Below are positions 41,071 to 62,707 of a stretch of 64,000 nt of DNA, piece by piece; position 1 is the first letter of the stretch; every line of letters starts with the position of its first letter. Under the pieces are notes generated by a model. That model was not told the DNA's origin. It searched no databases and saw nothing but the letters and a program-made list of their open reading frames with translations. The position numbers and the translations under genes were made by a program. Origin of the DNA: Leeuwenhoekiella sp. (GTDB lineage Bacteria > Bacteroidota > Bacteroidia > Flavobacteriales > Flavobacteriaceae); NCBI GenBank assembly GCA_002708845.1, contig PAPI01000014.1, forward strand, positions 1 through 64,000, given 5' to 3'.

Positions 41071-41121
41071 TTTTAAATTCAATTTAGTATTTAAAATACT
41101 TATAATCAGGCACTTGTATTT

Positions 41122-41164: not shown

Positions 41165-42418
41165 ATGGACATCCCTTTAGAAAAGAAACGCTTTACTACT
41201 CAAAAAATACTGATGATCGCAGGCGGTATTGCCCTGGCTGCACTTATTGTTTTTGTGATCCTTTCGACTACAGGCAATTCAAAACTCAACGTTCAAAAAG
41301 AGCGTCTCAGCATTGCAACGGTTAAGCAGGATGTTTTTCAGGAAAACATTCCGGTGAACGGGGTGGTGATGCCTATTACCACTATTTATCTTGATGCGCT
41401 TGAAGGCGGCCGCGTAGAAGAAAAGTTTGTAGAAGACGGCGCGGTGATGAAAAAAGGCGAGCCCATTTTACGTCTGTCAAACACCGATTTGGAATTAAGC
41501 CTTGTGAATCAGGAAACTCAGGTGTACAACTTACTTACCCAAATGCAGATTTCGCAGAATGCCGCACGTCAAAATACCATTGTAAAACTCAATCAATATA
41601 CCGATGTGGAGAATAGCCTGATTGAGGCTAAACGGGTGTACGAACTCAATCAAAAGCTTTACGATAAAGACGCGATAGCAAGGCAGGATTTGATTAAATC
41701 AAAAAATGACTACAACTACCAGAAAGAGCGTATGCAACTGGCAGAGCAAATTCTGGCTCAGGACTCCATCGCTGTGAAGCAGGAGAAAAATCAGGTTTCA
41801 AGTTCTTATGCACGTACCCAGAATGCTTTAGAATTGATGCGTCGTAAGGTAGCCGATTTGGTAGTTCGGGCGCCGGTTGACGGGCAACTCACTTCGCTTG
41901 ATGCTGAGATTGGTCAGTCTAAAAATAAAGGGGAGCGCCTTGGGCAGATCGATGTGTTGAGCGGGTATAAAGTGCGTGTTGATATAGACGAACATTACAT
42001 TTCCAGAATTTACACGGGTCAAAAAGGCTCGTTTGATTTTGACGGAAAAAACTACACGCTGGTAATCAAAAAAGTTTTTACGCAGGTGACAAACGGAAGG
42101 TTTCAGGTAGATATGGAATTTGAATCTGAAGTTCCGGAAGGTATACGTCGTGGGCAAACGCTACAGATTCGTGTTGCACTGAGTCAGGAAAAGCAGGCTT
42201 TGCTCATTCCAAAAGGCGGATTCTTTCAGGAAACCGGTGGTAACTGGATTTTTAAAGTAAGTGAAGACGGAAGTACCGCCTATAAAGCAGACATTTCATT
42301 GGGTAGCCAGAACACCGAATATTATGAAGTCTTAAGCGGACTGGAACCTGGAGACCGGGTGATCACAAGCAGTTACGATAACTACGAAGAAGTACAGGAA
42401 TTGGTACTTCAGGATTAA
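41165..42418 (+). CDS. HlyD/MacA-type periplasmic adaptor
   Basis: The 417-residue protein has a membrane anchor (about 15-37), a lipoyl-like half motif (L-D-A-L-E-G-G-R-V-E-E-K-F, about 76-88), and a long coiled-coil hairpin (about 110-215). The second lipoyl half is V-R-A-P-V-D-G-Q-L (about 235-243). Beta-barrel and membrane-proximal domains follow up to residue 417. Such adaptors link an inner-membrane ABC permease to a TolC channel. It is the first gene after the divergent promoter and precedes the first ATPase by 57 bases. Confidence 0.92.
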   Translation: MDIPLEKKRFTTQKILMIAGGIALAALIVFVILSTTGNSKLNVQKERLSIATVKQDVFQENIPVNGVVMPITTIYLDALEGGRVEEKFVEDGAVMKKGEPILRLSNTDLELSLVNQETQVYNLLTQMQISQNAARQNTIVKLNQYTDVENSLIEAKRVYELNQKLYDKDAIARQDLIKSKNDYNYQKERMQLAEQILAQDSIAVKQEKNQVSSSYARTQNALELMRRKVADLVVRAPVDGQLTSLDAEIGQSKNKGERLGQIDVLSGYKVRVDIDEHYISRIYTGQKGSFDFDGKNYTLVIKKVFTQVTNGRFQVDMEFESEVPEGIRRGQTLQIRVALSQEKQALLIPKGGFFQETGGNWIFKVSEDGSTAYKADISLGSQNTEYYEVLSGLEPGDRVITSSYDNYEEVQELVLQD

Positions 42419-42475
42419 AACTAAAAAACGATGATAACACTAATCTTAGCATTTATAAACCTAATTCTTTCTTAG

Positions 42476-43180
42476 ATGATTAAAATAACAGACTTAGAAA
42501 AGTATTATGCCACCGAGGAGGTGCGCACCATAGCCCTCAATAAACTGTCTTTTCAGGTGCAGGAAGGCGAATTTGTTGCCGTAATGGGCCCTTCAGGTTG
42601 TGGTAAATCAACCCTGCTTAACATCCTGGGACTTCTGGATGACCCGGACGGAGGCAGTTTTATTTTTAACGGTATTGAAGTAGCCGGCTTTAATGAGCGT
42701 AAACGTGCCGATTTGCGCAAGCACAACATCGGTTTTGTCTTTCAAAGCTTTAATCTGATTGACGAACTCACCGTGTTTGAAAACGTAGAGCTTCCGTTGA
42801 TTTATACCGGTGTAAAACCTGCCGAGCGTAAAAAACGCGTAGACGAAGTGCTTGAGAAAATGCAAATCATGCACCGTCGTAAACACTTTCCGCAGCAATT
42901 ATCAGGAGGACAGCAACAGCGAGTAGCCGTAGCCCGAGCTGTAGTGAATAATCCTAAACTCATTCTTGCCGATGAGCCTACGGGTAACCTGGACAGCAGC
43001 AACGGGAACGAGGTGATGGATTTACTTACCGAACTCAACGAGGCCGGTACTACGATCATTATGGTTACACACAGTGAGCACGACGCCAAATACAGCCACC
43101 GCATTATCCGGATGCTAGACGGTCAAAAGGTTACCGAAAATGTACTCTCAGAGTATAAAAGCAAAACCTTGGAAGTTTAA
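42476..43180 (+). CDS. MacB/LolD-type ABC ATPase, canonical
   Basis: The 234-residue ATPase has Walker A G-P-S-G-C-G-K-S-T (38-46), signature L-S-G-G-Q-Q-Q-R-V (142-150), Walker B L-I-L-A-D-E-P-T-G (162-170), D-loop N-L-D-S (171-174) and switch His in V-T-H-S. All catalytic residues are intact. It belongs to the MacB/LolD/FtsE group that works with FtsX-type permeases. It stands at the head of seven permease genes and is the likely engine for some or all of them. Confidence 0.94.
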   Translation: MIKITDLEKYYATEEVRTIALNKLSFQVQEGEFVAVMGPSGCGKSTLLNILGLLDDPDGGSFIFNGIEVAGFNERKRADLRKHNIGFVFQSFNLIDELTVFENVELPLIYTGVKPAERKKRVDEVLEKMQIMHRRKHFPQQLSGGQQQRVAVARAVVNNPKLILADEPTGNLDSSNGNEVMDLLTELNEAGTTIIMVTHSEHDAKYSHRIIRMLDGQKVTENVLSEYKSKTLEV

Positions 43181-43272
43181 GATTTCCTAACGGGGATTCA
43201 TTCATCAACCCGATGCATATCGGGACCAATCAATCAAAACCGGGACTTAATCACTCCCACTATTTTACCGCT

Positions 43273-45660
43273 ATGCTTAAAAATTATTTCAAAATCGCTT
43301 TTCGGAATTTGTGGAGACACCGTGTTTTTTCACTCTTAAATATAGGTGGTCTTGCAGTGGGTATGGCAGCAGCCTTCCTGATTCTTTTATATGTGGGCTT
43401 TGAACTAAGCTACGATACGATGTTTCCTAAAAAAGATCGTATCCATATGCTGGTAACTGATTTAAAAACACCTTCAGATTCTTATGAGATCCCAGTTATA
43501 GACTGGACTGTTCTGGCAAAGATAACACCTCAATTTCCAGAAATTGTCTCTTCAACTCGATTAATGGATTTGAGTCTGAATATTCAAAAAGGAACGGAGA
43601 ATTTTCAGGAAAAACGAGCATTGGCTGCAGATTCTACGTTTTTTAAAATTTTTGAGATAAAACTTTTAAGCGGCAATCCTGATGAGGTTCTTCGGGCGCC
43701 ATTAAGTCTGGTGTTGAGCGAGACCGGAGCTCAAAAATATTTTGGTTCAGAAAATCCTATTGGCAAAAGCCTGAAAATTATGAACGGGAAGTATACGGCT
43801 CAAATCACCGGGGTCATGGAAGATCTTCCAAAAAACACCCATATTCAGGCAGATTATTTACTCTCCTTGTCAACCTACACAAAAATTATAGACCCAACGA
43901 TTGACGAGTCCTGGGGGAACTACGATCCCAGAGGATATGTGCTGTTATCAGAAAATGCAGATGCTAAAAATTTGGTTTCCAAAATCAACGCATTTCTTGA
44001 TGAAGTGGATGGTGAGAAGATGAAAGCTGCAAACCTTTTTGTCAAACAGGATTTAGAACCCATAACAGAGGTTTACCTCTATTCTACGCGTATTGGAAGC
44101 GGAAGCCCAAACATTAATAACGTCTATATTTTTGCTATTGTAGCACTATTTATACTCCTCATTGCAGGCATTAACTTTATCAACCTTACTACGGCCAGAT
44201 CTGTAGAGCGTGCTAAGGAAGTAGGTATTCGTAAAGTTATAGGAGCTCAAAAAAACCAGCTGATGTTACAGTTTGTAGGTGAGTCACTCATCATCACGAT
44301 TCTGGCATTTATATTGGGCATTGCAATTGCTACACTTGCCTTGCCGTATTTCAATACACTTGCAGGTCAGGAAGTAGCCAGCGGAATATTTTCTAACTGG
44401 AGTTATCTAGGACTTTTCTTTGCGATAGCACTAGTAATTGGTTTGGCGGCTGGTACCTATCCGGCGCTCGTTTTATCTTCGTTTAGACCGGTGAGTGTTC
44501 TTAAAGGAAAATTTTCAACCACCGGTAAAGGCGCGTTTTTACGCAAAGCCCTTGTGGTGGGTCAGTTTTCGGTTTCAATTATTTTGATCATTGGCACCCT
44601 TATTATTTATAAACAAATGCATTTTATGCAAAGTCAGGACCTGGGGTTTGCTAAAGATCGCATACTGGTTTTAGATACGGGAGATAATCCCAAACAACAA
44701 CTGCTTGCCGATAATCTAAGAAATAATCCCAATATCATCACAGTAGGAAAAAGCTCTACTGTTCCCGGAGGTGGCGGCGACAATAGCTCGGCATTATCTA
44801 TAATGGAAAACAGCCAGGGGGAGGATCAAACCTTAACTGTAGACCGTTATGTTGTTGATGAAAACTACCTTGATCAATTAGATATCAAGTTCATTGCCGG
44901 CAGAAATTTTTCGAGAGATTTTGCCAGCGATAGCACGCAGGCACTTATCATAAATGAAAGAGTTGTTGATTTACTGGGATATGCTACTGCAAAAGAGGCC
45001 CTGGGAGCCTCTTTTGATCAATGGGGCCGAAAAGGTCAGATTATTGGCGTGGTAGCCGATTTTCATTCCACTTCATTACAGAAGGAAATAGCACCCTTAT
45101 GTTTTGTGTTTGACACCAAACAATCCCGATTATTAACCTTGAAAGTTGCGGCAGCAGATTTGCCAAATACGCTGTCTTTCGTTGAAGAATCCTGGAAGCG
45201 TTTTCTGCCAAACAATCATTTTGAGTATTACTTTTTAGATGAGTTTTTTGATAGGCAATATCGAGCAGAACGGCGCTTTAGTAAGCTCTTTTTAAACTTT
45301 TCAATTCTGGCAATTTTCATTTCGTGCCTGGGTCTTCTGGGTCTGGCTTCGTACAGCACCAAGCAGCGTCGCCGTGAGATAGGCATTCGCAAAGTGGTGG
45401 GAGCAAGTGTCCCGGGTATTGTCAATTTACTTTCTAAAGAATTTATAAAACTGGTAGGAATTGCCTTTCTAATCGCAGTGCCTATAGCCTGGTATGGGAT
45501 GCACAACTGGTTACAGGATTTCGCGTATCGAATAGATATACCGGTATGGATTTTTGCTGCTGCCGGAATATTGGCCATTGGCATAGCGATTTTAACCGTA
45601 AGCTTTCAGGCCATTAAAGCCGCAATTGCTAATCCTGTAAAGTCCTTAAGAACGGAATAA
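43273..45660 (+). CDS. FtsX/MacB-type permease 1 of 7
   Basis: The 795-residue protein begins M-L-K-N-Y-F-K-I-A-F-R-N-L-W-R and has two MacB_PCD-plus-FtsX units: TM1 near 20-42, a periplasmic domain, three helices after A-G-I-N-F-I-N-L, a fifth helix (V-V-G-Q-F-S-V-S-I-I-L-I), a second periplasmic domain and three last helices. The E-V-G-I-R-K-V-I-G and E-I-G-I-R-K-V-V-G-A-S coupling motifs sit in each half. It ends in P-V-K-S-L-R-T-E. ATG at 43273 matches the N termini of the six paralogues; an in-frame ATG at 43213 adds 20 unrelated residues. Confidence 0.92.
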   Translation: MLKNYFKIAFRNLWRHRVFSLLNIGGLAVGMAAAFLILLYVGFELSYDTMFPKKDRIHMLVTDLKTPSDSYEIPVIDWTVLAKITPQFPEIVSSTRLMDLSLNIQKGTENFQEKRALAADSTFFKIFEIKLLSGNPDEVLRAPLSLVLSETGAQKYFGSENPIGKSLKIMNGKYTAQITGVMEDLPKNTHIQADYLLSLSTYTKIIDPTIDESWGNYDPRGYVLLSENADAKNLVSKINAFLDEVDGEKMKAANLFVKQDLEPITEVYLYSTRIGSGSPNINNVYIFAIVALFILLIAGINFINLTTARSVERAKEVGIRKVIGAQKNQLMLQFVGESLIITILAFILGIAIATLALPYFNTLAGQEVASGIFSNWSYLGLFFAIALVIGLAAGTYPALVLSSFRPVSVLKGKFSTTGKGAFLRKALVVGQFSVSIILIIGTLIIYKQMHFMQSQDLGFAKDRILVLDTGDNPKQQLLADNLRNNPNIITVGKSSTVPGGGGDNSSALSIMENSQGEDQTLTVDRYVVDENYLDQLDIKFIAGRNFSRDFASDSTQALIINERVVDLLGYATAKEALGASFDQWGRKGQIIGVVADFHSTSLQKEIAPLCFVFDTKQSRLLTLKVAAADLPNTLSFVEESWKRFLPNNHFEYYFLDEFFDRQYRAERRFSKLFLNFSILAIFISCLGLLGLASYSTKQRRREIGIRKVVGASVPGIVNLLSKEFIKLVGIAFLIAVPIAWYGMHNWLQDFAYRIDIPVWIFAAAGILAIGIAILTVSFQAIKAAIANPVKSLRTE

Positions 45661-45725
45661 GCCCCCTAACCCCCAAAGGGGGGAATTAATAACAATTGCA
45701 ATAACAATAATAATAACAATAAATA
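45661..45725. repeat. Intergenic C5-AAA-G6 hairpin plus AT triplet tract, copy 1
   Basis: CCCCCAAAGGGGGG at 45670-45683 forms a short hairpin and is followed by a run of AATAACAATAATAATAAC-type triplets up to the next start codon. Similar tracts occur at 53007-53058 and 60461-60521, always between genes of the permease array. They probably spread with duplication of the permease genes. Confidence 0.5.
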
Positions 45726-48083
45726 ATGTTAAAGAACTATATCAAAATCGCGTTTAGAAACCTTTGGAAAAACAAGGGGTTTAGCGCACTCAATATATTT
45801 GGTCTGGCAATAGGGGTTACCTGTGCAAGTTTGATCCTTCTTTGGGTTGAAGATGAAATGAGCTTTGATACCGTTGTAGCAGATCAGGAGCGGGTTTATA
45901 GTGTGCCTACTAACCAAACCTATGAAGGGCAGGTCCGCACGTTTTTTCAGGCCACTCCGGGACCTCTAGCAGCCGCTTTAAAAGCTGAAATACCTGAAAT
46001 AACCAAAGCTGCACGTCTCAGAAATGCTGATTTTCTTTTTTCTGTAAATACTTCTTCCATTACAAGCACCGGTGCATTTGCAGACGACGATATTTTTGAT
46101 CTGTTTGATTTGAAATTTATAGAAGGCAATGCTGGTGATGCTTTTAAGTTGCAGGAAGGTATCGTTATTACTAAAGCGGTAGCTCAAATCCTTTTTGAAA
46201 ATCCCACGGATCTTTTAGGGAAAGTAATTCGTGTTAATCAGCAGGATAATTTTAAGATAACCGGTGTGGTTGAAAACCTTCCGGAAAATACAACCTACAG
46301 TTTCAACTGGCTGGTGCCTTTTAAGAATTTCACTAAGGACAAACCCTGGACACAGGAATATGGTAGCAAGTTCACCGATACTTTTGTGATGCTTGCACCT
46401 GGCGCAGATTTTAATACGGTTAATGCAAAAGTAAAACAGATTTTACCGGCAAAGACTGATGATGCTGATACCCAGGCCATATTGCATGCAGCAAAGAACT
46501 GGCACTTACGATCAGATTTTAAAGATGGTCAAATCGTGGGCGGTCGTATCGAGTATGTGCGTTTATTCAGTTTTATCGCGCTTATTATTTTAGTTATTGC
46601 CTGCATCAATTTTATGAATTTATCAACTGCGCGTAGTGAGAAACGTGCCAATGAGGTCGGGGTACGTAAAACCTTAGGTTCAGATAAAAAGCAGCTGGTT
46701 TTTCAGTTTATTACGGAAGCCTTAATGACCGCTGTATTAGCTGCCGTACTAAGTATTTTGGTTTTGATCCTCATTTTGCCGGCATTTAATGCATTAATAG
46801 ATAAACAACTTGCACTTGATATTTTCAATCCAACTCATTTTCTTTCGCTTATAGCAATAACACTTACCTGTGGCGTATTTGCAGGTTTATATCCAGCATT
46901 CTACCTCTCTTCCTTTAAACCTATTGATGTGCTTAAAGGGAATCGAATACAGGCTAAAGGTGCCGGTTTCATTCGCAAAGGACTTGTCATTACGCAATTT
47001 GCGATATCTATAATTTTCATCATTAGTACCTTATTGGTCTACCAGCAGGTGCAACATGTCAAGAATCGAGATTTAGGACTCAATAAAGAAAATCTGATTG
47101 AAATACCGGTTAATGGAGCTTTAATCGAAAACCGAAAAGCTATAGCAGAAAGTCTAAAAAATACAGGTATGATCAGTAATCTGGGAATAGCCAACTCAAA
47201 TATTCTATCTGCCGGAAATAATGGCTCTGGTTTAAGGTGGCAGGGAGGCGACAACTCAGAGGATGTCTTGGTTTCATTTAGATATACGAATGACGAATAT
47301 TTAAAGACTACCGGTATTGAGTTAATAGAAGGTCGTGGTTTTAGTCCGGTAGTTGCTCAAGATAGCACACACGTAATTATTACAGAATCGTTTGCTAAGC
47401 TTATGGGGACTGGCAGTGCACTGGGTAAAACCATTGACTGGTATGGAGATGTGTTTACTGTTATTGGGGTGGCTAATGATTATTTGTATGGAGACATGTA
47501 CGGCACCAGTGACCCGGTAATGTTTTTCCATTTTCCATCTGAAGCTGCATACATGTATTTAAAGACGAATCCTAACTATACTACATCAGAAATTTTGAAT
47601 ACCGTAGAGTCAACTTTAAAAATCTACAATCCCGGCTATCCCTTTGAATACCGATTTGTAGATGAAGCTTTTAATGCCCGTTTTAAAAATGAGCAGCTTA
47701 TAGGCAATCTCTCTCGAATTTTTGCCTTGCTGGCTATTTTGATATCGTGTCTGGGCCTCCTGGGTCTGTCTGCATATACAGCAGAACAACGCCGAAAAGA
47801 GATAGGGGTACGCAAAGTTTTGGGATCAAGCGTCGCAAATATAGTGCGCCTGCTGTCAAAAGATTTTATAGTGCTGGTACTGGTAGCTATTGTAATTGCA
47901 ATTCCATTAGCCTGGTATATTATGTACAACTGGCTGCAGGGATTTGCTTATCGTATTTCAATCAATGCCTGGGTATTTGCAGTTGCAGGTATTGCCGCTA
48001 TAGGAATTGCACTATTGACAGTAAGCTTTCAGGCCATTAAAGCAGCAATAGCTAACCCCGTAAAATCCCTAAGGACGGAATAA
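45726..48083 (+). CDS. FtsX/MacB-type permease 2 of 7
   Basis: The 785-residue paralogue starts M-L-K-N-Y-I-K-I-A-F-R-N-L-W-K-N-K and shows the same eight-helix, two-periplasmic-domain plan. Its first-half coupling motif reads A-N-E-V-G-V-R-K-T-L-G-S and the second reads K-E-I-G-V-R-K-V-L-G-S-S. The terminal nineteen residues S-F-Q-A-I-K-A-A-I-A-N-P-V-K-S-L-R-T-E are identical to those of permeases 1 and 3, while the periplasmic domains differ widely. It lacks an ATPase domain and must use a separate ATPase. Confidence 0.92.
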   Translation: MLKNYIKIAFRNLWKNKGFSALNIFGLAIGVTCASLILLWVEDEMSFDTVVADQERVYSVPTNQTYEGQVRTFFQATPGPLAAALKAEIPEITKAARLRNADFLFSVNTSSITSTGAFADDDIFDLFDLKFIEGNAGDAFKLQEGIVITKAVAQILFENPTDLLGKVIRVNQQDNFKITGVVENLPENTTYSFNWLVPFKNFTKDKPWTQEYGSKFTDTFVMLAPGADFNTVNAKVKQILPAKTDDADTQAILHAAKNWHLRSDFKDGQIVGGRIEYVRLFSFIALIILVIACINFMNLSTARSEKRANEVGVRKTLGSDKKQLVFQFITEALMTAVLAAVLSILVLILILPAFNALIDKQLALDIFNPTHFLSLIAITLTCGVFAGLYPAFYLSSFKPIDVLKGNRIQAKGAGFIRKGLVITQFAISIIFIISTLLVYQQVQHVKNRDLGLNKENLIEIPVNGALIENRKAIAESLKNTGMISNLGIANSNILSAGNNGSGLRWQGGDNSEDVLVSFRYTNDEYLKTTGIELIEGRGFSPVVAQDSTHVIITESFAKLMGTGSALGKTIDWYGDVFTVIGVANDYLYGDMYGTSDPVMFFHFPSEAAYMYLKTNPNYTTSEILNTVESTLKIYNPGYPFEYRFVDEAFNARFKNEQLIGNLSRIFALLAILISCLGLLGLSAYTAEQRRKEIGVRKVLGSSVANIVRLLSKDFIVLVLVAIVIAIPLAWYIMYNWLQGFAYRISINAWVFAVAGIAAIGIALLTVSFQAIKAAIANPVKSLRTE

Positions 48084-48110
48084 TAATAAGAATAGTAATA
48101 AAAATAAACC

Positions 48111-50582
48111 ATGCTTAGAAACTATATCAAAATCGCCTGGCGGAATATCTTAAGATATAAGACCAATAGTGTTCTCAATATTTTAGGGTTAAGCATTGGT
48201 TTAGTATCGGTGATGCTCATTGCATTATACATCCAGAATGAACTGGCTTATGATACCCAGTTTGATCAGGCAGCGCAAGTCTACCGAGTGAATATGAAAG
48301 GCAAAATGGGAGATAACGCATTTTATGCGGGATACACACCACCACCTGCCGGGCAGGCCTTAGTTGATCAGTTTCCGGAAATTGAAAGCGCAACGCGCAT
48401 CTATCAACCCGATAATACCAAGTTAACCTATAAAGACGCTACGACTTCCAAAGTTTTTAATGAATCTGAAATTCTTGCCGTTGATCCTAATTTCCTCGAA
48501 GTTCTAAGCTATCCCTTGCAAAAAGGGGATGCCGCTACCTGTTTGCAGGAGCCCGGCAGTATTGTGATTACCCCACAAATCGCAAAGAAATATTTTGGCG
48601 ATGCAGATCCTATGGGTAAAACATTAGCATACGGGGACTCCGGGAAACCCTTACAAGTGACCGGTGTGTTTAAAGATCTCACCAACTATCCGGCTTCGGT
48701 AAAATTTGACATCCTGATGCCGGTAGCCAATTTTAATGATGTCACCTATTTCAATTGGAGTTGGGTATGGCTCAATATGGCGACTTATGTAAAACTTACG
48801 CCACAGGCAAGTGCGAATCCAGCGACCCTGGCGAATCTTGAATCTCGATTTCCGGAGATGCTCAAGGTACAGGCAGCACCCGCGTTTGAGCGTATAGGGC
48901 AACCTTTTGAGGAGTTTATTGAGAAGGGAAATTACTGGGAGCTGCACTTACAGGCTTTGTCGGATATTCATTTGTATTCTGATGGAATTACGTCTTCCAT
49001 CACCGAGCAGCACGATGTTAAAAGCCTCTATATTTTAGGCATCATCGCCTTTTTTATCATCATTATGGCTTGTGTGAATTTTATGAATCTTTCTACCGTT
49101 CAGGCTGTAAAACGCAGTAAGGAAATAGGGATTCGTAAAGTCTTAGGATCGCAACGGAAACAACTCGTTAAGCAGTTTATGACCGAAGTTTTCTGTTATA
49201 CTTTTTGTGCTACACTACTGGCTTTTATCACGGTGCTTTTGATTTTACCGATGTTTAACGGATTGACCGGAAAAGAGCTTGATATTCAGGCATTTTTTAA
49301 TGGAAATCTAATCTTGCTAATACTCGCTGTTGTAGTCCTTACCACCCTGTTAGCCGGAATGTATCCTGCATTTTTCCTTACATCATTCAACCCTATACGA
49401 GCCTTAAAAGGAAAAGTGGGTAAAACAACCCAATCCAGTTTTATCCGTAACGGGTTGGTTGTTTTTCAATTTTCAATTGCGATCACCCTGATCATTTGCA
49501 CCCTGGTGGTCTTTAGTCAGTTGCGTTATGCGCAACAAAAAGATTTAGGTTTTGAGAAAGATCTTGTTCTGGTTATTAACAATGCCGAAACTCTGGGGAA
49601 TAGTCTGGCTAGTTTCAAAAAAGAACTTACGGTGTTAACCGGAGTAGAAGCGGCAAGCAGTTCGAGTGGGATGCTCACCCGTGGAAATTTCGGAGATTTC
49701 TACACCCCAAAACCTACAGCTGACGAACCCCATATTGCAACTGATATTTCCTTGAGTTCGTATCTGGTAGACGACGCATTTATACCAACACTGGATCTGG
49801 AAATCGTTGAAGGGCGCGGCTTTGATAAGCAGTTTAAAGATTCGCTATCGGTTATTCTTAATGAAACAGCAGCGGCTCAAATAGGTTGGGAAAATCCTAT
49901 AGGAAAGCAAATACGCTATCCCGGCGGTAACATGGAATATTACACGGTAGTAGGTGTTTTAAAAGATTTTAATCTGGAATCCCTGCATACGTCCATTGAG
50001 CCATTTGCCCTTTTTGCTGAAGCATCAAAGAGTTATGATACCCGAACCACCTTTATCAGCCTTAAAATATCCGGAGAGCATACTAAGAAAGTAATCGGTC
50101 AGGTACAGGATTTGTGGGAAAGTTATTTGGAAAGTACTCCTTTTGAATATTCATTTTTAGATGAAGATTTGGCGTATGCCTATCAGGAAGATCAACGCTT
50201 AGCCTCCTTATTTACGGGCTTTAGCATACTTGCCATTTTTGTTGCCTGCCTGGGATTATTCGGTCTTATCGCTTTTACAGCGCAGCAACGTACGAAAGAA
50301 ATAGGTGTGCGCAAAGTATTAGGAGCCAGCGTAAGTAGTATCGTAAAACTTTTGGCTACTAACTTTTTAAAGTTGGTTTTACTGGCGTTAATTCTGGCGG
50401 TACCGGTAGCCTGGTTGGCTATGGATAGTTGGCTGCAGGATTTTGCCTATCGAATAGAAATACCCATTTGGGCATTTGTAGCAGCAGGTGCTTTGGCACT
50501 GGCTATAGCATTTATAACCGTGAGCTTTCAGGCGATCAAAGCCGCAATCGCTAACCCCGTAAAATCCCTGCGTACCGAATAA
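48111..50582 (+). CDS. FtsX/MacB-type permease 3 of 7
   Basis: The 823-residue protein, the longest of the array, begins M-L-R-N-Y-I-K-I-A-W-R-N-I-L. Its first periplasmic domain contains a distinct Y-T-P-P-P-A-G-Q-A-L segment and the second a G-R-G-F-D-K region. The coupling motifs K-E-I-G-I-R-K-V-L-G-S and K-E-I-G-V-R-K-V-L-G-A-S are well kept. It ends with the same nineteen residues as permeases 1 and 2. The gene starts 27 bases after permease 2. Confidence 0.92.
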   Translation: MLRNYIKIAWRNILRYKTNSVLNILGLSIGLVSVMLIALYIQNELAYDTQFDQAAQVYRVNMKGKMGDNAFYAGYTPPPAGQALVDQFPEIESATRIYQPDNTKLTYKDATTSKVFNESEILAVDPNFLEVLSYPLQKGDAATCLQEPGSIVITPQIAKKYFGDADPMGKTLAYGDSGKPLQVTGVFKDLTNYPASVKFDILMPVANFNDVTYFNWSWVWLNMATYVKLTPQASANPATLANLESRFPEMLKVQAAPAFERIGQPFEEFIEKGNYWELHLQALSDIHLYSDGITSSITEQHDVKSLYILGIIAFFIIIMACVNFMNLSTVQAVKRSKEIGIRKVLGSQRKQLVKQFMTEVFCYTFCATLLAFITVLLILPMFNGLTGKELDIQAFFNGNLILLILAVVVLTTLLAGMYPAFFLTSFNPIRALKGKVGKTTQSSFIRNGLVVFQFSIAITLIICTLVVFSQLRYAQQKDLGFEKDLVLVINNAETLGNSLASFKKELTVLTGVEAASSSSGMLTRGNFGDFYTPKPTADEPHIATDISLSSYLVDDAFIPTLDLEIVEGRGFDKQFKDSLSVILNETAAAQIGWENPIGKQIRYPGGNMEYYTVVGVLKDFNLESLHTSIEPFALFAEASKSYDTRTTFISLKISGEHTKKVIGQVQDLWESYLESTPFEYSFLDEDLAYAYQEDQRLASLFTGFSILAIFVACLGLFGLIAFTAQQRTKEIGVRKVLGASVSSIVKLLATNFLKLVLLALILAVPVAWLAMDSWLQDFAYRIEIPIWAFVAAGALALAIAFITVSFQAIKAAIANPVKSLRTE

Positions 50583-50606
50583 TTTATCAATCAAAATCAA
50601 TCAGCT

Positions 50607-55533: not shown

Positions 55534-57978
55534 GTGATTAGAAATTATATTAAAATCGCCTGGCGGAATATCTGGAACAACAAGCTTTTTTCAGCCATAA
55601 ATATCATCAGTCTTGCTATTGGTTTAAGTGCTGCTTTTGTGATAGGGCTTATGGTGTATTATGAGTTTACGTTTGACACCTTTCACCAGAATGGGGATCG
55701 TATGTATCGCGTTGTGAGCGATTTTGAAACCCCTCAGGGTGATATGAAAAATGGTGGAGTAACGCCACCTATGCGACTTGCAGTACGTGAAGAATTAACC
55801 GGAATTGAGCAATCGGCTTATTTTTTTAATTGGTGGATCAGTGAAAGTAAGGCAGCTTCCAGCGAACAGATTTTTAAAGATCCGGAGAAAATCATACTCA
55901 CTCAGGCGAGCTATTTTGGTCTTTTTCAATACAAGTGGATTGCCGGTTCTAAAGAAACTGCATTACAGAAACCCAATCAGGTGGTGCTTACCCGTAAACG
56001 TGCTTTAGAATATTTTCCCAATCTACCCTTAACAGCAGTAATGGGGCAGACTATTGAGTATAATGCTGATATTCAGGCTGTGGTTTCCGGTATAGTAGAA
56101 GATTTTGACAAGCGCTCAGATTTCTTTTTTGATGAGTTTGTCTCTTTAGAAACCGCAAAGCAAACGGAAAGTAAAGATCAGATTCTAAGCGATAGCTGGG
56201 GGATGACCAATAATGCCTCGCAACTCTATATTAAGATTTCTGAACATAGTACAGCGGCACAAATAAAGAGTCAGTTACTAGCATTAAGTGAGCAGCACGT
56301 AGATGCTGATATGATAAAATATAATAATAAGCGCACTTTTAATCTGCAGCCACTTGCAGATTTGCACTTTGATCAGGAGTATGGTGTTTACGATTATTCA
56401 CGGCCTGAAGCCAATAAGAATATATTGATCAGTCTTATTTTTATAGCAATCTTTTTGCTGCTTTTAGGAAGTATCAATTTCATCAATCTCAATACAGCCC
56501 AAGCGACGCAGCGTGCAAAAGAAATAGGTATTCGTAAAACTCTGGGAAGTTCAAAAATACAGTTGATTGTTCAGTTTCTGGGAGAAACCTTTTTGCTAAC
56601 CTTGCTTGCAGCGCTGTCTTCGGTTATTTTATCAATCTTGGCTTTAAAGGTATTTGATGATTTCATCCCTAATGGAGTTGATGCTACGCTTATGGTAAGT
56701 CCTTGGTTTGCCGGTCTGGTGCTTGGCCTTATTACGATCCTCACGTTCTTATCCGGTTTTTATCCAGGGCTTGTTTTGTCTCGATTTAAACCATCTCGGG
56801 CACTTAAGGGTGAGCTTATACGATCTGAAAATAAAGGTTCTTTGCGCAAGGTATTAACCGTTTCGCAATTTGTAATTGCTCAGGTTTTTGTGACTGCCAC
56901 CCTGCTGGTGAGCAAACAAATATACTTTATGATGCACAGCGATCTGGGTTTTAGAACAGATGCTGTTGCATACCTTCAAACCCCGTGGGAAGATCAGAAG
57001 GTCGATAAACGCCTCGTTTTAGAACAGGAAATCACGAATTTACCAGGGGTCTCCAGGATTAGTTTAGGGGGAATGCCTCCTGCATCTCACAATATGGCTA
57101 CCCGAATGGGAATTTACAAAACCGAAAATCAGGAAGTCATTCAGGAACTTCAGGTTCTCAACGGCGATGGAGATTATTTGGATGTTTATAACATCGATAT
57201 TTTGGCGGGAAGAAAACCGCTCAACGATACCATCGAAGAATATATCATCAATGAAACCGGAATGCAGGCCTTTGGTTTTCACAATCCCGAAGATATCGTA
57301 GGAAAGTATATTGAGCTGAATAGCAATAAACGACTGATTGTGGGAGTGATGAAAGATTTTAAGCAACGCTCACTCAAAACCGGAATAGTACCCTTAGTCC
57401 TTACGGGAGATACCGGTAGAGAACGCCGTACAAATTTCAGAACTGTGCATTTGGTATTGGGTGATAAAGCCTCCGGCTGGAGCGGAACACTAGCTCAGAT
57501 TGAGCAGGTTTACAAAAAAATATATCCGGGTGAAGATTTTAAAATGACGTTTTTAGATCAGACAATTGCCAACTTTTATGAGCAGGAGCAACGCATTGCA
57601 AGTTTGCTCAACTGGGCTACCGGATTATCGGTGTTGATTAGTTGTCTGGGGCTTCTGGGATTGGTTATTCATACTACAGAGCGACGTAACAAAGAAATAG
57701 GCATTCGCAAGGTTTTGGGAGCATCATTGGTGCAGCTCAACCTATTGTTGTGTAGAGATTTTTTAAAGCTAGTGCTTTTGGCCTATCTCATTTCTGTGCC
57801 GCTGGCCTGGTGGGGATTACACAATTGGCTTCAGGATTATACCTACAAAACCGAAATGAGCTGGTGGATTTTTGCCCTAAGCGGAATAGGAATGGTCGTG
57901 CTCGCTCTGGCAATAATGAGTTTTAAAACCTTAAGAACAGCCCTAAGAAACCCGGTAGAATCATTACGAACTGAATAA
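55534..57978 (+). CDS. FtsX/MacB-type permease 6 of 7
   Basis: The 814-residue protein starts at GTG 55534 with M-I-R-N-Y-I-K-I-A-W-R-N-I-W, aligned with the other N termini. Coupling motifs are K-E-I-G-I-R-K-T-L-G-S-S and K-E-I-G-I-R-K-V-L-G-A-S. Its first periplasmic domain has a W-W-I-S-E-S-K segment unlike the others. It ends S-F-K-T-L-R-T-A-L-R-N-P-V-E-S-L-R-T-E. The GTG start and the 18-base leader before it are shared with permease 7, suggesting that one gene was copied from the other's position. Confidence 0.92.
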   Translation: MIRNYIKIAWRNIWNNKLFSAINIISLAIGLSAAFVIGLMVYYEFTFDTFHQNGDRMYRVVSDFETPQGDMKNGGVTPPMRLAVREELTGIEQSAYFFNWWISESKAASSEQIFKDPEKIILTQASYFGLFQYKWIAGSKETALQKPNQVVLTRKRALEYFPNLPLTAVMGQTIEYNADIQAVVSGIVEDFDKRSDFFFDEFVSLETAKQTESKDQILSDSWGMTNNASQLYIKISEHSTAAQIKSQLLALSEQHVDADMIKYNNKRTFNLQPLADLHFDQEYGVYDYSRPEANKNILISLIFIAIFLLLLGSINFINLNTAQATQRAKEIGIRKTLGSSKIQLIVQFLGETFLLTLLAALSSVILSILALKVFDDFIPNGVDATLMVSPWFAGLVLGLITILTFLSGFYPGLVLSRFKPSRALKGELIRSENKGSLRKVLTVSQFVIAQVFVTATLLVSKQIYFMMHSDLGFRTDAVAYLQTPWEDQKVDKRLVLEQEITNLPGVSRISLGGMPPASHNMATRMGIYKTENQEVIQELQVLNGDGDYLDVYNIDILAGRKPLNDTIEEYIINETGMQAFGFHNPEDIVGKYIELNSNKRLIVGVMKDFKQRSLKTGIVPLVLTGDTGRERRTNFRTVHLVLGDKASGWSGTLAQIEQVYKKIYPGEDFKMTFLDQTIANFYEQEQRIASLLNWATGLSVLISCLGLLGLVIHTTERRNKEIGIRKVLGASLVQLNLLLCRDFLKLVLLAYLISVPLAWWGLHNWLQDYTYKTEMSWWIFALSGIGMVVLALAIMSFKTLRTALRNPVESLRTE

Positions 57979-58063: not shown

Positions 58064-60460
58064 GTGATTAAAAATTATATCAATATCGCCTGGCGGAATC
58101 TGCTTAAGAATAAGCTTTCCGGTATTATTACCATTGGAGGCCTGGCAATTGGCCTTACCGCCTGTACGCTTATTCTGTTTTATGTGGCGCACGAGCGTAG
58201 CTATGATAGCTTTCACGCCGATTCTGATCGTATGTATACCGTAGAAGCTCAGGTAAATATGGGCGGCGATACGATCTATATGAATGCGATGAATGCAACC
58301 GTTGGGGCACTCACCGAAAATGCGAGTCCGGCGGTTGCCTCCAGCCTGCGTTTAAAAGATGAGTATAAACCGGTAATCCTGACCAATACGCAACAACCAG
58401 GTACCCGATTTTCTGAAAAAAATTTCAGCTATGCTGATGCTAATTTTTTTGACTTCTTTTCTTTTAAACTGCTCAAAGACAGCAAAACAGAAGCTTTAGC
58501 CAGGCCTTATTCCTTGGTGCTTAGTCAGGATATGGCCAAAAAGTATTTCGGAAATCAAAACCCGATAGGGGAGTCGATATCGGTGCGGAAGGATAGTACC
58601 TATCTATTTACGGTAACCGGAGTTATGGAAAATACACCCAGCAATTCCAGTATTCACCCCGACTTTGTGGCATCGCTAAGCAGTATGCTAACCATGAATG
58701 AATATAAGCGTGATTTTGATTCCGAAGCCTTTAGATTAGGTGCGTTTCCAACCTACTTAAAACTGAACAACGCATCAGATGTTAAGACGGTGCAAAAAAC
58801 TATGCAGGAATTAAGTACTCAAGGCAATGCAGATGCCACTGATGTATATAGTCTGAGTTTACTAACTGATAAACATTTAAACGGAAGAGACGCTTCAAAC
58901 ACCCGATACATCAGTATTTTTCCGTTAATAGCGGTGCTCATTTTAATACTAGCGTTAGTCAATTATCTAAGCTTATCAACTGCACGAGCTAGCTTGCGAT
59001 CCAAGGAAATCGGCGTGCGTAAAGTAAACGGTGCCAGCAGAAAAAGTGTTGCTTTTCAGTTTTATATAGAATCCACGCTTTATGTACTGCTTGCGTTTGT
59101 GGTTTCTGTAGCGCTGAGCGTGATTCTAAAACCCTGGTTTTTTGGTATTCTGGGCATTGAGATTGATGCTGTCTTTTTTCTCAATTCCACCTTTTTAGGC
59201 ATACTCGCCGGTTTGCTGGTATTTACCATTCTGGCAACCGGTTTTTATCCTGCACTGGTGATGTCAGCATTCAATCCGGTTGAAAACCTTAGAAGCAGTC
59301 GTGCTTCAAAAACAGGAGGGGTGCGCTTGCGTAAGGTATGTACCACCGTGCAGTTTGTGATCGCGATAGCCCTTTTAGTGAGTGGGATTATCATTCATCA
59401 ACAGCTTGATTTTGTGCGGGGTGTTGATACCGGTCTAAATCGTTCTGACGTCGTTATGTTGCCGCTGCAGAAAACAATGGGTACCAATAGCACGCCTTTT
59501 AGAAATGAGATCGAAAAGCTTTCGCAGGTAACCAACACGGCAGTAACTCAATATCCTATTTACAAAGGCTACAATATGTTTTTTGTTTCTTCCGAACAAA
59601 TGCCTGATGCTATAGGCCTGCCTATTTTTGCAGTAGATGACGATTTCTTTCAAACCTTGGATGTAAACTGGGAACTAAAACCGGAAGACGAACATTATTA
59701 TTCTAAAAGCGAACACGTAGTCATTAACGAAGCGGCCATCAGCAAATTTAAACTGGGATCTAATCCTATAGGAGAAAGCCTGCTTTTCGGAAACAGCAAA
59801 AGGGAAATTATAGGAGTAGTTAAAGATTTTCATTTTGAAAACCTGGACGCTCCTATAAATGCGTTGGCCTTGTTTGTGAATTCAAAAACCCAAGCAACCA
59901 CAAACATTCTGGGTAAAAGCGGAGGCTGTCTGTTTGTGCGCTTTCAGCCGGATAGCGATGTATCCCAATTGCTGTCTCAAATGGAAGCCATTTATACCCA
60001 ATACGATTCTGCTACTCCGTTTGAATATCAGTTTCTGGATGATGCCTTTGATGCGATGTTTCGCTCAGAAGAGCGGCTTTCACAGGTTTTTAATCTCTTT
60101 ATCATCCTCGCCATGCTAATCGCGGGACTCGGACTTTTTGCGCTGGCAACCTTTAGCGCGCAGCAGCGAGTCAAAGAACTGGGGGTGCGTAAGGTTTTGG
60201 GAGCATCTGTGATACAGCTTACTACTTTGCTCTCCTTTGATTTTTTGAAATTAATACTTTTGGCTATTCTCATCGCATCGCCGCTGGCGTGGTATTTTAT
60301 GCATCTGTGGCTCCAGGACTTTAATTATAAAACCACCATACACTGGTGGGTCTTTTTAGGCGCTGGTACAGGGGCTATGGCTCTTGCGATTTTAACGGTC
60401 AGCTTTCAGGCAATTAAAGCCGCACTTGCAAACCCGGTGAAATCATTACGAACTGAATAA
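58064..60460 (+). CDS. FtsX/MacB-type permease 7 of 7
   Basis: The 798-residue protein starts at GTG 58064 with M-I-K-N-Y-I-N-I-A-W-R-N-L-L. Coupling motifs are K-E-I-G-V-R-K-V-N-G-A-S and K-E-L-G-V-R-K-V-L-G-A-S. The usual short N-[FY]-[MI]-N-[LM] signature after the first periplasmic domain is L-V-N-Y-L-S-L here, so this copy is among the most diverged. It ends S-F-Q-A-I-K-A-A-L-A-N-P-V-K-S-L-R-T-E. It is followed by the second ATPase gene. Confidence 0.92.
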   Translation: MIKNYINIAWRNLLKNKLSGIITIGGLAIGLTACTLILFYVAHERSYDSFHADSDRMYTVEAQVNMGGDTIYMNAMNATVGALTENASPAVASSLRLKDEYKPVILTNTQQPGTRFSEKNFSYADANFFDFFSFKLLKDSKTEALARPYSLVLSQDMAKKYFGNQNPIGESISVRKDSTYLFTVTGVMENTPSNSSIHPDFVASLSSMLTMNEYKRDFDSEAFRLGAFPTYLKLNNASDVKTVQKTMQELSTQGNADATDVYSLSLLTDKHLNGRDASNTRYISIFPLIAVLILILALVNYLSLSTARASLRSKEIGVRKVNGASRKSVAFQFYIESTLYVLLAFVVSVALSVILKPWFFGILGIEIDAVFFLNSTFLGILAGLLVFTILATGFYPALVMSAFNPVENLRSSRASKTGGVRLRKVCTTVQFVIAIALLVSGIIIHQQLDFVRGVDTGLNRSDVVMLPLQKTMGTNSTPFRNEIEKLSQVTNTAVTQYPIYKGYNMFFVSSEQMPDAIGLPIFAVDDDFFQTLDVNWELKPEDEHYYSKSEHVVINEAAISKFKLGSNPIGESLLFGNSKREIIGVVKDFHFENLDAPINALALFVNSKTQATTNILGKSGGCLFVRFQPDSDVSQLLSQMEAIYTQYDSATPFEYQFLDDAFDAMFRSEERLSQVFNLFIILAMLIAGLGLFALATFSAQQRVKELGVRKVLGASVIQLTTLLSFDFLKLILLAILIASPLAWYFMHLWLQDFNYKTTIHWWVFLGAGTGAMALAILTVSFQAIKAALANPVKSLRTE

Positions 60461-60521
60461 GCGTCCTAACCCCCAGGGGAATTAATAACAATAATAATAG
60501 TAATAACAATAAAACTAAATT
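60461..60521. repeat. Intergenic C/G stub plus AT triplet tract, copy 3
   Basis: GCGTCCTAACCCCCAGGGG begins directly after the permease 7 stop and is followed by AATAACAATAATAATAGT-type sequence. It is the shortest of three related elements in the array (45661, 53007, 60461). Confidence 0.5.
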
Positions 60522-61199
60522 ATGCTTTTACAACTCAATCATATTTACAAATGGGTCAAACAAGGCGGGAAACGCGTCTTTTTACTAAATGACATCAGCC
60601 TTGATGTGGAAGAAGGCGAGTTTATCTCCATAATGGGTCCTTCGGGATCGGGGAAATCGACCTTGCTTAACGTTATCGGGATGCTCGACGAATTTCAGGA
60701 AGGGGAGTATATGTTTCTGGATGAATCGGTACATACACTCAAAGAAAAGCACCGTTCTAAATTGTACAAGGAATACATCGGTTTTGTGTTTCAGGCGTAT
60801 CATTTGATTGATGAGTTAACCGTTTATGAAAACATCGAAACTCCGCTTTTGTACAAGAATATCAAGTCTTCAGAACGAAAGGCGCTGGTCGCAGATATGC
60901 TGGACCGTTTCAACATCGTAGGAAAAAAAGATTTGTTTCCGGCGCAATTAAGTGGTGGGCAACAGCAACTGGTGGGCATTGCACGGGCATTGATTGCCAA
61001 GCCTAAACTCATTCTGGCAGACGAACCTACCGGAAACCTGAACTCCAAACAGGGCGAAGAAATTATGGAGCTTTTTAAAGAATTAAATCAGGAAGGAGTG
61101 ACCATCATTCAGGCTACACACTCCGAGTCTAATGCGGCGTATGGGAATCGCATCATTCACCTGCTCGACGGAAGCAAACAGCATCAGGCTTCTAACTAA
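60522..61199 (+). CDS. Second MacB/LolD-type ABC ATPase with altered D-loop
   Basis: The 225-residue ATPase keeps Walker A G-P-S-G-S-G-K-S-T (39-47), L-S-G-G-Q (143-147), Walker B with D-E-P-T-G (167-171) and a switch His in A-T-H-S. Its signature continues Q-Q-Q-L150 where the family normally has Arg, and the D-loop reads N-L-N174-S where the first ATPase has N-L-D-S. These changes suggest slower or asymmetric ATP turnover, possibly in a heterodimer with the ATPase at 42476. It is separated from the TolC-type gene by a hairpin terminator. Confidence 0.92.
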   Translation: MLLQLNHIYKWVKQGGKRVFLLNDISLDVEEGEFISIMGPSGSGKSTLLNVIGMLDEFQEGEYMFLDESVHTLKEKHRSKLYKEYIGFVFQAYHLIDELTVYENIETPLLYKNIKSSERKALVADMLDRFNIVGKKDLFPAQLSGGQQQLVGIARALIAKPKLILADEPTGNLNSKQGEEIMELFKELNQEGVTIIQATHSESNAAYGNRIIHLLDGSKQHQASN

Positions 61200-61206
61200 A
61201 ATCCAA

Positions 61207-61247
61207 AAAAGCGCCCACTAAGAGGAATCATCAACCTGGGCGCTTTT
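61207..61247 (+). terminator. Terminator between second ATPase and TolC-type gene
   Basis: AAAAGCGCCCA (61207-61217) pairs perfectly with TGGGCGCTTTT (61237-61247) over a 19-base loop. Only four T follow, so it may be leaky. It suggests that the channel gene gets fewer transcripts from the array promoter or uses its own. Confidence 0.75.
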
Positions 61248-61282
61248 AAAATTCTATTTATTTATCATCAATCAAAAGCATT

Positions 61283-62707
61283 ATGAAAATTCCATTCACA
61301 GGCCTGCTAACGGCCTGCTTAATTCATATCTGTAGTATACAGGCACAGGAAACACAAGCCACACTCACACTGGAAGATTGCATCGAGATCGCTTTAGACC
61401 AAAACTTTTCGGTACAACGCGCTGAGCTCAATGCGCAGGGCGAAAATATTCAGTATAAACAAAGCCGAAACGCGCTTTTACCGCGGGTTAATGCCGACTA
61501 TAATTATGGGGTGAGCAACGGCCGAAGCATTGACCCGTTTACCAACGCTTATGTAACTGAGCAGCTTAACTTCTCAAATGCCGGACTTAGCCTTAGTGCA
61601 ACAGTTTTTAACGGTTTTAGACTGCTTAACAGTCTCAAACAAAGCAGTCTGAATAAAGCTGCTGCTGAGATGGATCTGCAGGAGTCACGCCAAAACCGGA
61701 TGCTTGATGTTACGCTGAGCTTTCTACAGGTTTTAAATGCACGCGAACTCGTAAAACTGGCGGAAACGCGTTTGCTTACGACTCAGGAACAGCTTAAACG
61801 TCTTGCAAAACTCAACGAAGAAGAGACCGGCAATCCTTCTGATTTTTACGATTTGCAGGGACAACTGACCACAGATCAAAATGCGATAACCGATGCTACT
61901 AACAGTCTGAAGAACGCCCTGGAAGACCTGAAATTTCTACTGAATACCGATGCGGAAATTGAAGCAGAAAATCTGGTTTTGGTAACCGATTTTAAAAATC
62001 AGGAGCTGTCTGCCGATGGCATCTACGAGCGGGCCCTGCAAAGTCTTGCAGCTATAAAGGCTCGTGAACTAAGGCTTGAGGCTACGGCCAAAGGAGTCGC
62101 GGTTGCACGCTCGCAATACATCCCCGAGATCAGCCTGTTTGCCAACCTGAATACCAACTACTCCAGCGCCGCCCGTTTGTTTGAAGAAACGGGAAATCAA
62201 CTTATTGAGACGGCCGATTTTGTAAACATTTCGGGAACCGATTATAGTGTGTTTACAGAAGAAACTCAGTTTGAATCTCGCGGCATCTCGTATAAAGATC
62301 AGTTAAATAACAACTTAAACTCTACCGTGGGCGTTGCGGTTAGCATTCCGCTTTTTAATGGGTTTCGGGCGAAGAACAATGTACAATTGCAAAAAATAGA
62401 ACAGAGTCGGGCAGAGGTAGACTTGGCAGAAACCAAACGTGCGCTGAAGCAAAACATCGCGCAGGCGTATAACGATTGGGATGCTGCGGAGAGCAATTAT
62501 GAGTTGCTGCAAGAGCAGGTAGCAGCTTATGAAAAGTCATTTGCCATCAATGAGGCGCGCTTCAACCTGGGTGTGGCTACCAGTGTAGAATACATCACCA
62601 GTAAAAACCGACTGGACAATGCCCGAATCAATTTAACCAATACCCGCTACACCTATCTTTTGCGTGATAAAGTGCTGGAGTTTTATCAGGGCAATGCAAT
62701 TCGGTAA
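61283..62707 (+). CDS. TolC-family outer-membrane efflux channel
   Basis: The 474-residue protein has a signal peptide ending near S-I-Q-A-Q and the TolC/OEP start motif T-L-T-L-E-D-C-I-E-I-A-L. Two long helical halves follow, each containing a pair of coiled-coil helices, and the second half includes V-S-I-P-L-F-N-G-F-R-A-K-N, the typical Bacteroidota TolC segment. It ends with the helix N-A-R-I-N-L-T-N-T-R-Y-T-Y. It completes the tripartite exporter begun by the adaptor at 41165. Confidence 0.93.
   Translation: MKIPFTGLLTACLIHICSIQAQETQATLTLEDCIEIALDQNFSVQRAELNAQGENIQYKQSRNALLPRVNADYNYGVSNGRSIDPFTNAYVTEQLNFSNAGLSLSATVFNGFRLLNSLKQSSLNKAAAEMDLQESRQNRMLDVTLSFLQVLNARELVKLAETRLLTTQEQLKRLAKLNEEETGNPSDFYDLQGQLTTDQNAITDATNSLKNALEDLKFLLNTDAEIEAENLVLVTDFKNQELSADGIYERALQSLAAIKARELRLEATAKGVAVARSQYIPEISLFANLNTNYSSAARLFEETGNQLIETADFVNISGTDYSVFTEETQFESRGISYKDQLNNNLNSTVGVAVSIPLFNGFRAKNNVQLQKIEQSRAEVDLAETKRALKQNIAQAYNDWDAAESNYELLQEQVAAYEKSFAINEARFNLGVATSVEYITSKNRLDNARINLTNTRYTYLLRDKVLEFYQGNAIR

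Follow-up and report, generated by a model that had tools for sequence, protein, structure and literature searches.

Candidate multi-permease Type VII ABC exporters with a pair of unlike ATPases in Leeuwenhoekiella and other Bacteroidota

A 64,000-nucleotide stretch of DNA from Leeuwenhoekiella sp. (contig PAPI01000014.1 of assembly GCA_002708845.1, positions 1 to 64,000, here called the window) carries a transporter array that is, by its domains, fold, and ATPase class, a member of the Type VII ATP-binding cassette (ABC) superfamily of MacB, LolCDE, YbbAP, and BceAB. Its genes lie on the + strand in the order adaptor, ATPase N1, permeases P1 to P7, ATPase N2, and TolC-type channel, as read from open reading frames (ORFs) and Pfam matches. 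A sequence-only reading had described seven double-FtsX permeases head to tail between two ATPases with one adaptor and one channel, and this description is confirmed. The range it gave, 41165..62707, has all these genes in place and omits the divergent kinase/sigma54-type regulator pair (38280-40959) and the promoter region (about 41028-41137), which we assign to the unit. We propose, with confidence balanced about evenly for and against, that the array encodes a multi-permease Type VII ABC exporter under inducible sigma54 control, whose interchangeable permeases all use the same N1:N2 motor and adaptor-TolC conduit. At the level of sequence comparison, the gene content, the gene order, the small number of close paralogs, purifying selection, the promoter motif, and the link between single-copy N2 and multi-permease genomes are established, and the array follows an organization of Type VII ABC systems that is widespread.

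Content and turnover of the arrays

Double permeases are encoded in 78 of the 249 genomes sampled from the family and in 74 of 235 genera (E <= 1e-60; best three permease candidates scored per genome). Twenty-three arrays contain both N1 and N2 and can be read from one to the other; they come mainly from the genomes with the most permease matches and from one genus, so that their sizes are not a random sample. Each has one adaptor, one N1, and one N2 together with 3 to 30 full-length permeases, and the permeases between N1 and N2 are all on one strand. The comparison of gene content across homologous loci suggested by the sequence-only reading finds a varying permease number beside a constant adaptor, N1, and N2. 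Its view that the window cluster is unusually large was mistaken, as arrays of 10 to 30 permeases occur in relatives; the largest hold 30 permeases over 80.9 kb (genome G243), 27 over 68.3 kb (G045), and 15 (G135). A response regulator lies near N1 in 21 and a kinase in 20 of the 23 arrays, several of the fetched stretches ending close by. A small form, consisting of adaptor, N1, and a single permease with no N2, is present at nine loci in eight genomes.

The genes are tightly packed. Permease-permease gaps have a median of 30 bp across the arrays (n=225), and the six gaps of the window measure 24 to 85 bp by ORF ends and hold no terminator-like site on the + strand; the number of such sites in the region as a whole is what chance would give (24 versus 20.0 +/- 3.8). 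The arrays of G243 (contig C11, 175-255 kb) and G045 (C2, 754-821 kb), which cover loci L054-L063, are possibly single transcription units of 70 to 80 kb. Four-permease blocks with no adjoining adaptor or ATPase were also seen (G248 C15, L069; G243 C22, L051), and the G243 block lies near an ORF that resembles a mobilisation relaxase by eye, which hints that permease blocks move.

Close paralogs within a genome are rare. The 285 permeases give 1934 pairs from the same genome; identity is above 50% in 29 of these pairs and reaches at most 71%. Clustering at 50% identity gives 62 clusters, 23 of them singletons; the widest covers 14 genera, and same-genome extra members total 30. This distribution points to a shared, reshuffled permease pool with old duplications and not to recent tandem copying. 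The ratio of nonsynonymous to synonymous substitution (dN/dS) is 0.05 to 0.14 in 11 close permease pairs, and the permeases are by this measure under purifying selection. The corresponding values are 0.00 to 0.008 for N1, 0.016 to 0.046 for the adaptor, and 0.012 to 0.078 for N2 (the response regulator pair G000-G002, with two regulators in the stretch, is omitted). Stronger constraint on N1 and the adaptor is expected if both must fit many partners. Positive selection on the two periplasmic domains was not seen, their median dN/dS being 0.117 and 0.091 versus 0.045 to 0.085 elsewhere (Nei-Gojobori method (NG86), same-group pairs, dS 0.1-1, n=24).

Within the genus, the array adjoins the same regulator in 11 of the 12 other species. 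No double permease was found in G008, and in G012 the array is split over two contigs. In a permease tree of 91 rows, which left out two partial rows, the genus genes fall by our own reading into 12 groups and 8 singletons. No genome has two genes of one group (0 same-group duplicates among 85 genes in 12 genus genomes, window and three broken genes included; singletons cannot register as duplicates by construction). The order of the groups is largely kept, with 381 concordant and 97 discordant comparisons (0.80, random 0.50 +/- 0.03, 0 of 1000 as high). Between close species, whole permease genes are gained, lost, or exchanged; the blocks around them are mostly 92 to 95% identical, or 78 to 87% where group b is included. 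G002, for example, lacks group a and has a group h gene inserted between c and d. The group e gene between d and f in G009 is of the other subtype, bar its last codons, which match window P5 (0.36 to 0.78 per 30-codon block, 0.99 in the last block); an exchange with a breakpoint near the 3' end is possible there (L015). Group f, to which P6 belongs, is interrupted in G003, G007, and G009, whereas the window and further congeners have intact copies.

Between close genomes, high-identity blocks often stop about 30 to 45 bp from the next permease start or resume in its last 70 bp or so. A general test for end sequences that track the neighboring gene more than their own gene was negative: the difference was -0.005 for the 5' 36 nt (459 of 500 permutations as large) and +0.003 for the 3' last 72 nt (241 of 500). 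Exchange by end tags as a rule is therefore not supported; the gene ends are conserved in all groups. Gene conversion within genomes was likewise rejected, inter-group identity being nearly equal within and between genomes; the within-genome value stands out most over the final 20 codons (0.71 versus 0.68).

Neutral or transient gene amplification with no functional division of labor would be compatible with the wide variation in copy number, the three broken group f genes, the three permease fragments held by one array, and one cluster with several members per genome in other genera. It is nevertheless highly improbable in view of the absence of near-identical copies within genomes, the purifying selection, the concordant gene order, and clusters common to up to 14 genera.

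The D-loop-altered ATPase N2

The D-loop of N2 departs from the canonical form, a feature that the sequence-only reading overlooked, as it did the occurrence of N2 as a conserved single copy in many genomes. In the arrays read, each of the 24 N2 proteins has the D-loop GNLN and the signature LSGGQQQLV, whereas the D-loop aspartate is kept in 34 of 34 N1-type rows, a set that takes in a few further ATPases from the fetched regions. Walker A, the Walker B glutamate, and the H-loop histidine are intact in both. N2 is 79 to 84% identical to the window N2 in 11 genomes outside the genus; the adaptor is just 34 to 40% identical to that of the window in the 16 genomes aligned outside the genus, some of which have no N2.

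With 10 to 11 candidates scored per genome, a single N2 match was obtained in each of 56 genomes out of 249 in the family and 59 out of 296 in the phylum. A comparison of the two lists by hand shows that all 56 N2-positive family genomes belong to the 78 with double permeases. At least three double permeases are present in 54 of these 56 versus 1 of the 22 N2-negative double-permease genomes (Fisher p 1e-15, treating related genomes as independent and scoring the best three permeases per genome). By these counts, N2 is a single-copy marker of multi-permease arrays that is strongly tied to the possession of several permeases.

Of the 89 ATPases placed in a tree, the 39 that have asparagine or histidine in the D-loop form one clade (SH-aLRT 100) with no aspartate row inside. 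The clade spans at least six phyla (Bacteroidota, Balneolota, Ignavibacteriota, Acidobacteriota, Gemmatimonadota, and Verrucomicrobiota), several of its rows coming from metagenome bins. A Calditrichia locus outside the tree (L082) also carries the N2 motif. Among the matches listed, the named records with an N2 at least 82% identical belong to Flavobacteriaceae (L074, L075, L079) and Sinomicrobium (L092). In L082, L087, and L181, N1 and N2 are direct neighbors, and no permease gene intervenes. At L081, L184, L185, L189, and L192, the fetched stretch holds an N2-type ATPase and a TolC-type gene but no permease; permeases may be encoded at other places in those genomes. A D-loop NL[NH]S together with an LSGGQQQ whose next residue is L, V, I, or M and not R makes a searchable signature, which could annotate as one system many "MacB-like" genes that are now named singly.

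A sequence asymmetry is thus conserved in one ATPase partner, as in a heterodimeric ABC ATPase pair. According to passages of PMC4242082, a D-loop Asp-to-Ala exchange in one subunit of TAP uncouples transport from hydrolysis and is silent in the degenerate-site partner. Because of this precedent and the D-loop and clade data, we infer that N2 would be the special partner of an asymmetric N1:N2 dimer. Alternatively, N1 homodimers might drive some permeases and N2 homodimers others, which would make the array a tandem of independent transporters. The motifs intact in both ATPases and the single-permease relatives with N1 alone would suit such a division. We consider it unlikely, since the D-loop aspartate is replaced in all 24 N2 of the arrays read, no aspartate row enters the N2 clade, these arrays have one N1 and one N2 regardless of permease number, the two can be adjacent with no permeases between them, and no two-class split was noticed in the permease tree (judged by eye, with no formal test).

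Regulation, gene models, and neighboring genes

The window kinase has two N-terminal transmembrane (TM) helices joined by a short loop and no periplasmic sensor domain. Two closely spaced TM segments are likewise predicted by hydropathy in 23 of 27 kinases of homologous loci, the other four being ambiguous at the threshold used. A membrane region with no room for a periplasmic domain suggests sensing via the membrane or the transporter. The kinase BceS also lacks an extracellular sensor domain, and kinases of BceAB-S systems sense through the transporter or the membrane.

The element TGGCAY occurs in 29 of 29 upstream regions of homologous loci (1.5 expected from mononucleotide shuffles); in 21 of them it sits 35 to 50 bp ahead of the start called for the first gene. 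A stricter -24/-12 pattern is found in 15 of the 29 versus 0.085 expected; this pattern and the relaxed sigma54 spacing were both chosen post hoc, after the sequences had been seen. Of 180 internal array gaps of at least 20 bp, one has a sigma54-like site. The canonical pattern with N5 spacing has no match in the window. At loci outside the genus, two TGGCAY elements stand 23 bp apart before the first gene in 12 of 17 cases, possibly as tandem sigma54 promoters or a second regulatory site. Passages of PMC12316311 independently predict sigma54 control of FtsX-like permeases. A TGT..ACA palindrome rule finds at least one putative regulator-binding site in 18 of 29 homologous upstream regions and two sites 22 bp apart in 11 of 29 (raw counts); under this general rule, the window upstream region has none, and its own pair of palindromes is listed in Table 1.

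P1 probably starts at 43273 (MLKNYFKIAFRN...), which is preferred over 43213 and gives 795 residues; the seven permeases measure 785 to 823 residues, each with MacB_PCD and two FtsX stretches above the Pfam cut-off. The probable kinase start is the ATG at 39623, the ORF being listed from a TTG at 39707. An Rfam scan of 40000-64000 gave no match reaching the gathering score, and PADLOC returned just generic ATPase, AAA, and kinase similarity for eight window proteins.

Upstream of the unit (34510-38243) lie genes for a large protein with no Pfam match, a DUF2490 protein, and a MORN-repeat protein, and these neighbors are also kept beside the array in G003 and G004. Downstream (63262-63756), a small putative lipoprotein has a weak partial match to protein-glutamine glutaminase that is probably meaningless (22.9 bits versus a cut-off of 250). 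Eleven DUF2807-like ORFs, counted by eye, lie in or beside the arrays of ten genomes, and all seven array-associated ORFs scanned match DUF2807 above the cut-off. DUF2807 belongs to the Toastrack group, for which passages of PMC11237479 describe a tie to envelope stress. The G243, G045, and G135 arrays have a putative exported alpha/beta hydrolase gene among the permeases (the one of G045 was scanned), which is reminiscent of YbbAP-TesA, and the G243 array also carries GH26 and DUF2911 genes. The window array has neither a DUF2807 nor a hydrolase gene.

Table 1. Genes and putative regulatory sites of the array unit in the window
Feature	Position	Strand	Basis
Histidine kinase, AtoS/ZraS-like	38280..39623	-	HATPase_c; NCBIfam below cut-offs
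Response regulator, NtrC/AtoC/ZraR-type, with sigma54-activation domain and Fis helix-turn-helix	39613..40959	-	Pfam; NCBIfam below cut-offs
Putative regulator-binding site, imperfect palindrome copy	41028-41050		22 bp from the perfect copy
Putative regulator-binding palindrome AAGTGT-N11-ACACTT	41050-41072		Perfect; read by eye, pattern post hoc
Sigma54-like promoter TGGCAC-N4-TTGCT	41123..41137	+	Sequence motif; conserved TGGCAY upstream
Periplasmic adaptor, HlyD/MacA-like	41165..42418	+	HlyD domains; NCBIfam RND_mfp above cut-off
ATPase N1, LolD/MacB class	42476..43180	+	ABC_tran; signature LSGGQQQRV, D-loop GNLD (canonical)
Permease P1, group a	43273..45660	+	MacB_PCD and FtsX; tree group
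Permease P2, group b	45726..48083	+	MacB_PCD and FtsX; AlphaFold model
Permease P3, group c	48111..50582	+	MacB_PCD and FtsX; tree group
Permease P4, group d	50607..53006	+	MacB_PCD and FtsX; tree group
Permease P5, group e	53059..55470	+	MacB_PCD and FtsX; tree group
Permease P6, group f	55534..57978	+	MacB_PCD and FtsX; AlphaFold model
Permease P7, group g	58064..60460	+	MacB_PCD and FtsX; tree group
ATPase N2	60522..61199	+	ABC_tran; D-loop GNLN, signature LSGGQQQLV
TolC-type outer membrane channel	61283..62707	+	OEP/TolC-type domain match

Related transporters and the proposed mechanism

The sequence-only reading that the periplasmic domains differ while the coupling motifs and C termini are alike holds across 306 aligned permeases. 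Mean column entropy is 0.71 bits in coupling helix 2, 1.01 in the C terminus, and 1.29 in coupling helix 1, and highest in the two periplasmic domains (2.76 and 2.70 bits). AlphaFold models of P2 (pLDDT 88.7, pTM 0.83) and P6 (pLDDT 85.7, pTM 0.79), which share 29% identity, follow one common plan. Both are predicted to have eight TM helices (own reading) and two periplasmic domains, and their coupling helices occupy corresponding positions; a periplasmic domain sits on a TM1-TM2 stalk, and a coupling helix lies between TM2 and TM3. In Foldseek searches of the PDB, YbbAP ranks first for both models, followed by MacB, with LolCDE and BceAB after; in a sequence-profile search, the periplasmic domain structure 3IS6 from Porphyromonas gingivalis and MacB rank first.

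As in MacAB-TolC, an FtsX/MacB_PCD permease, a HlyD-type adaptor, and a TolC-type channel are encoded together. In contrast to MacAB-TolC, the ATPase is a separate gene and not fused to the permease N terminus, the permease is a fused pair, the two ATPases are unlike, 3 to 30 permeases accompany one adaptor, and the two-component control is of sigma54 type. The array permeases share with YbbAP-TesA of Escherichia coli the single chain with two periplasmic domains and two coupling helices and the separate ATPase, and YbbP binds one YbbA per coupling helix (2:1) according to passages of PMC12646458. YbbP has 10 TM helices with a two-helix linker as opposed to the eight counted here, and the adaptor, TolC, many permeases, and two ATPase types set the array apart. 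The BceAB-BceRS systems also place a Type VII permease beside a two-component system whose kinase lacks a sensor domain, and Bce transporters and two-component systems are described in published excerpts as co-evolving. BceB, as described in such excerpts, has ten TM helices and one large domain, whereas the array permeases have eight and two domains; the NtrC/sigma54-type regulator and the multi-permease array are further differences. ADOP (TIGR03434) is the best NCBIfam model for all seven window permeases, matching six of them over nearly the full length and P3 in two stretches, with scores of 240 to 329 bits against a cut-off of 622.3, and the array permeases are not orphans like ADOP but have adjacent ATPases.

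The affinity to YbbAP, the closest solved structure to both models, raises the alternative that the arrays maintain the envelope independently of the adaptor. The permeases would then be YbbAP/LolCDE-like and extract lipids or lipoproteins for periplasmic partners, with one or few using the adaptor and TolC. The hydrolase gene in arrays of three other genera, which recalls YbbAP-TesA, and the DUF2807-type ORFs at arrays of ten genomes point the same way. Against it stand the adaptor in all 23 arrays and the TolC-type ORF in 21, the adaptor and N1 kept at all nine single-permease loci, and a window array with no hydrolase, and we regard this alternative as improbable.

The nearest NCBIfam equivalogs of the adaptor and of both ATPases are DarC and DarD of the darobactin exporter DarBCD, and DarB comes second to ADOP for the permeases. 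All these scores are below the cut-off (DarB 93 to 174 of 700, DarC 184.5 of 450, DarD 298.3 and 246.5 of 375). A darobactin-like role, in which the cell would export peptides or secondary metabolites that it makes itself and each product would have a permease, is very unlikely all the same: the short window gaps leave little room for precursor genes, no biosynthetic gene was recognised among the eight flanking proteins scanned, in which the locus differs from DarBCD, and the stress-type kinase/sigma54 switch fits defense better.

For the exporter proposed here, each permease of about 800 residues would correspond to two MacB-like half-transporters fused into one chain; with its two coupling helices, it should require a pair of ATPase monomers. 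One asymmetric motor, formed by N1 and the D-loop-altered N2, would dock under any permease via the conserved coupling helices and termini, and the complex would work by mechanotransmission. Each permease may collect a class of hydrophobic or amphipathic compounds of its own from the periplasm or the outer leaflet and squeeze them into the shared adaptor and TolC, with the divergent periplasmic domains setting specificity. The kinase, lacking an ectodomain, would sense the state of the transporter or the membrane in the manner of BceAB-S, and its NtrC-type partner would switch on the whole array from one sigma54 promoter. The substrates are probably envelope-active compounds that are cleared from the envelope. 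The modular exporter suggested by the sequence-only reading is thus partly supported: comparative genomics favors it through the 3 to 30 permeases per adaptor, N1, and N2, which are largely non-redundant, under purifying selection, and alike in their coupling surfaces.

Several observations weigh against the proposal. No N2 is seen in G013 and G023, with two permeases each, or in G037a with three; L076 and L093 have an N2 and a single permease, and no permease was found in the fetched stretch for five of 20 phylum-level N2 loci. A TolC-type ORF is absent from the fetched stretch of two of the 23 arrays, and some permeases could work with neither adaptor nor TolC, as YbbAP and BceAB do. G104 has two permeases outside its N1-N2 interval, and six permeases of its array fall into a single 50%-identity cluster, which shows that older duplications exist beyond the genus of the window. 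The broken group f genes of three congeners run contrary to permeases being maintained. The D-loop Asp-to-Ala exchange in ABCG5/8 is cited as being without effect in passages of PMC4242082. The similarity of the models to YbbAP is moderate (9ge6, TM-score 0.47 for P2 and 0.44 for P6, root-mean-square deviation 11-12 A). No clear coupling-helix change that would point to a division of the two helices between N1 and N2 was seen between 18 permeases of N2-negative genomes and the 306 others. The N4 spacing of the sigma54-like site in the window is one base shorter than the consensus.

Literature searches on the arrays or their parts in this group, covering no preprints and few subscription papers, found no description of them, and passages of PMC2864250, PMC6671954, and PMC5524665 contain nothing on such arrays. 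A single, often heterodimeric ATPase module serves many membrane specificity subunits in group II energy-coupling factor (ECF) importers and in sugar importers with a shared ATPase. Those systems are importers of another fold, whereas here whole transmembrane units would be swapped, within one array and on the export side. More tentatively, the arrays might be the export-side counterpart of group II ECF importers, with one asymmetric N1:N2 pair as shared engine and one conduit powering up to 30 swappable permeases from one sigma54 promoter, a D-loop-altered N2 dedicated to compatibility with many permeases, and the array as an evolving cassette pool for diverse envelope-active compounds.

If the proposal holds, ABC export would here gain specificity through additional whole permeases while motor and conduit stay the same, and the widespread single-copy N2 would be the marker of such systems. 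The arrays would offer a genetic handle on how one ATPase pair serves many transmembrane units, on the role of the altered D-loop in the Type VII superfamily, and on how environmental Bacteroidota resist many envelope-active compounds. For these bacteria, the arrays may be a tunable kit that clears many different harmful molecules from the cell envelope.

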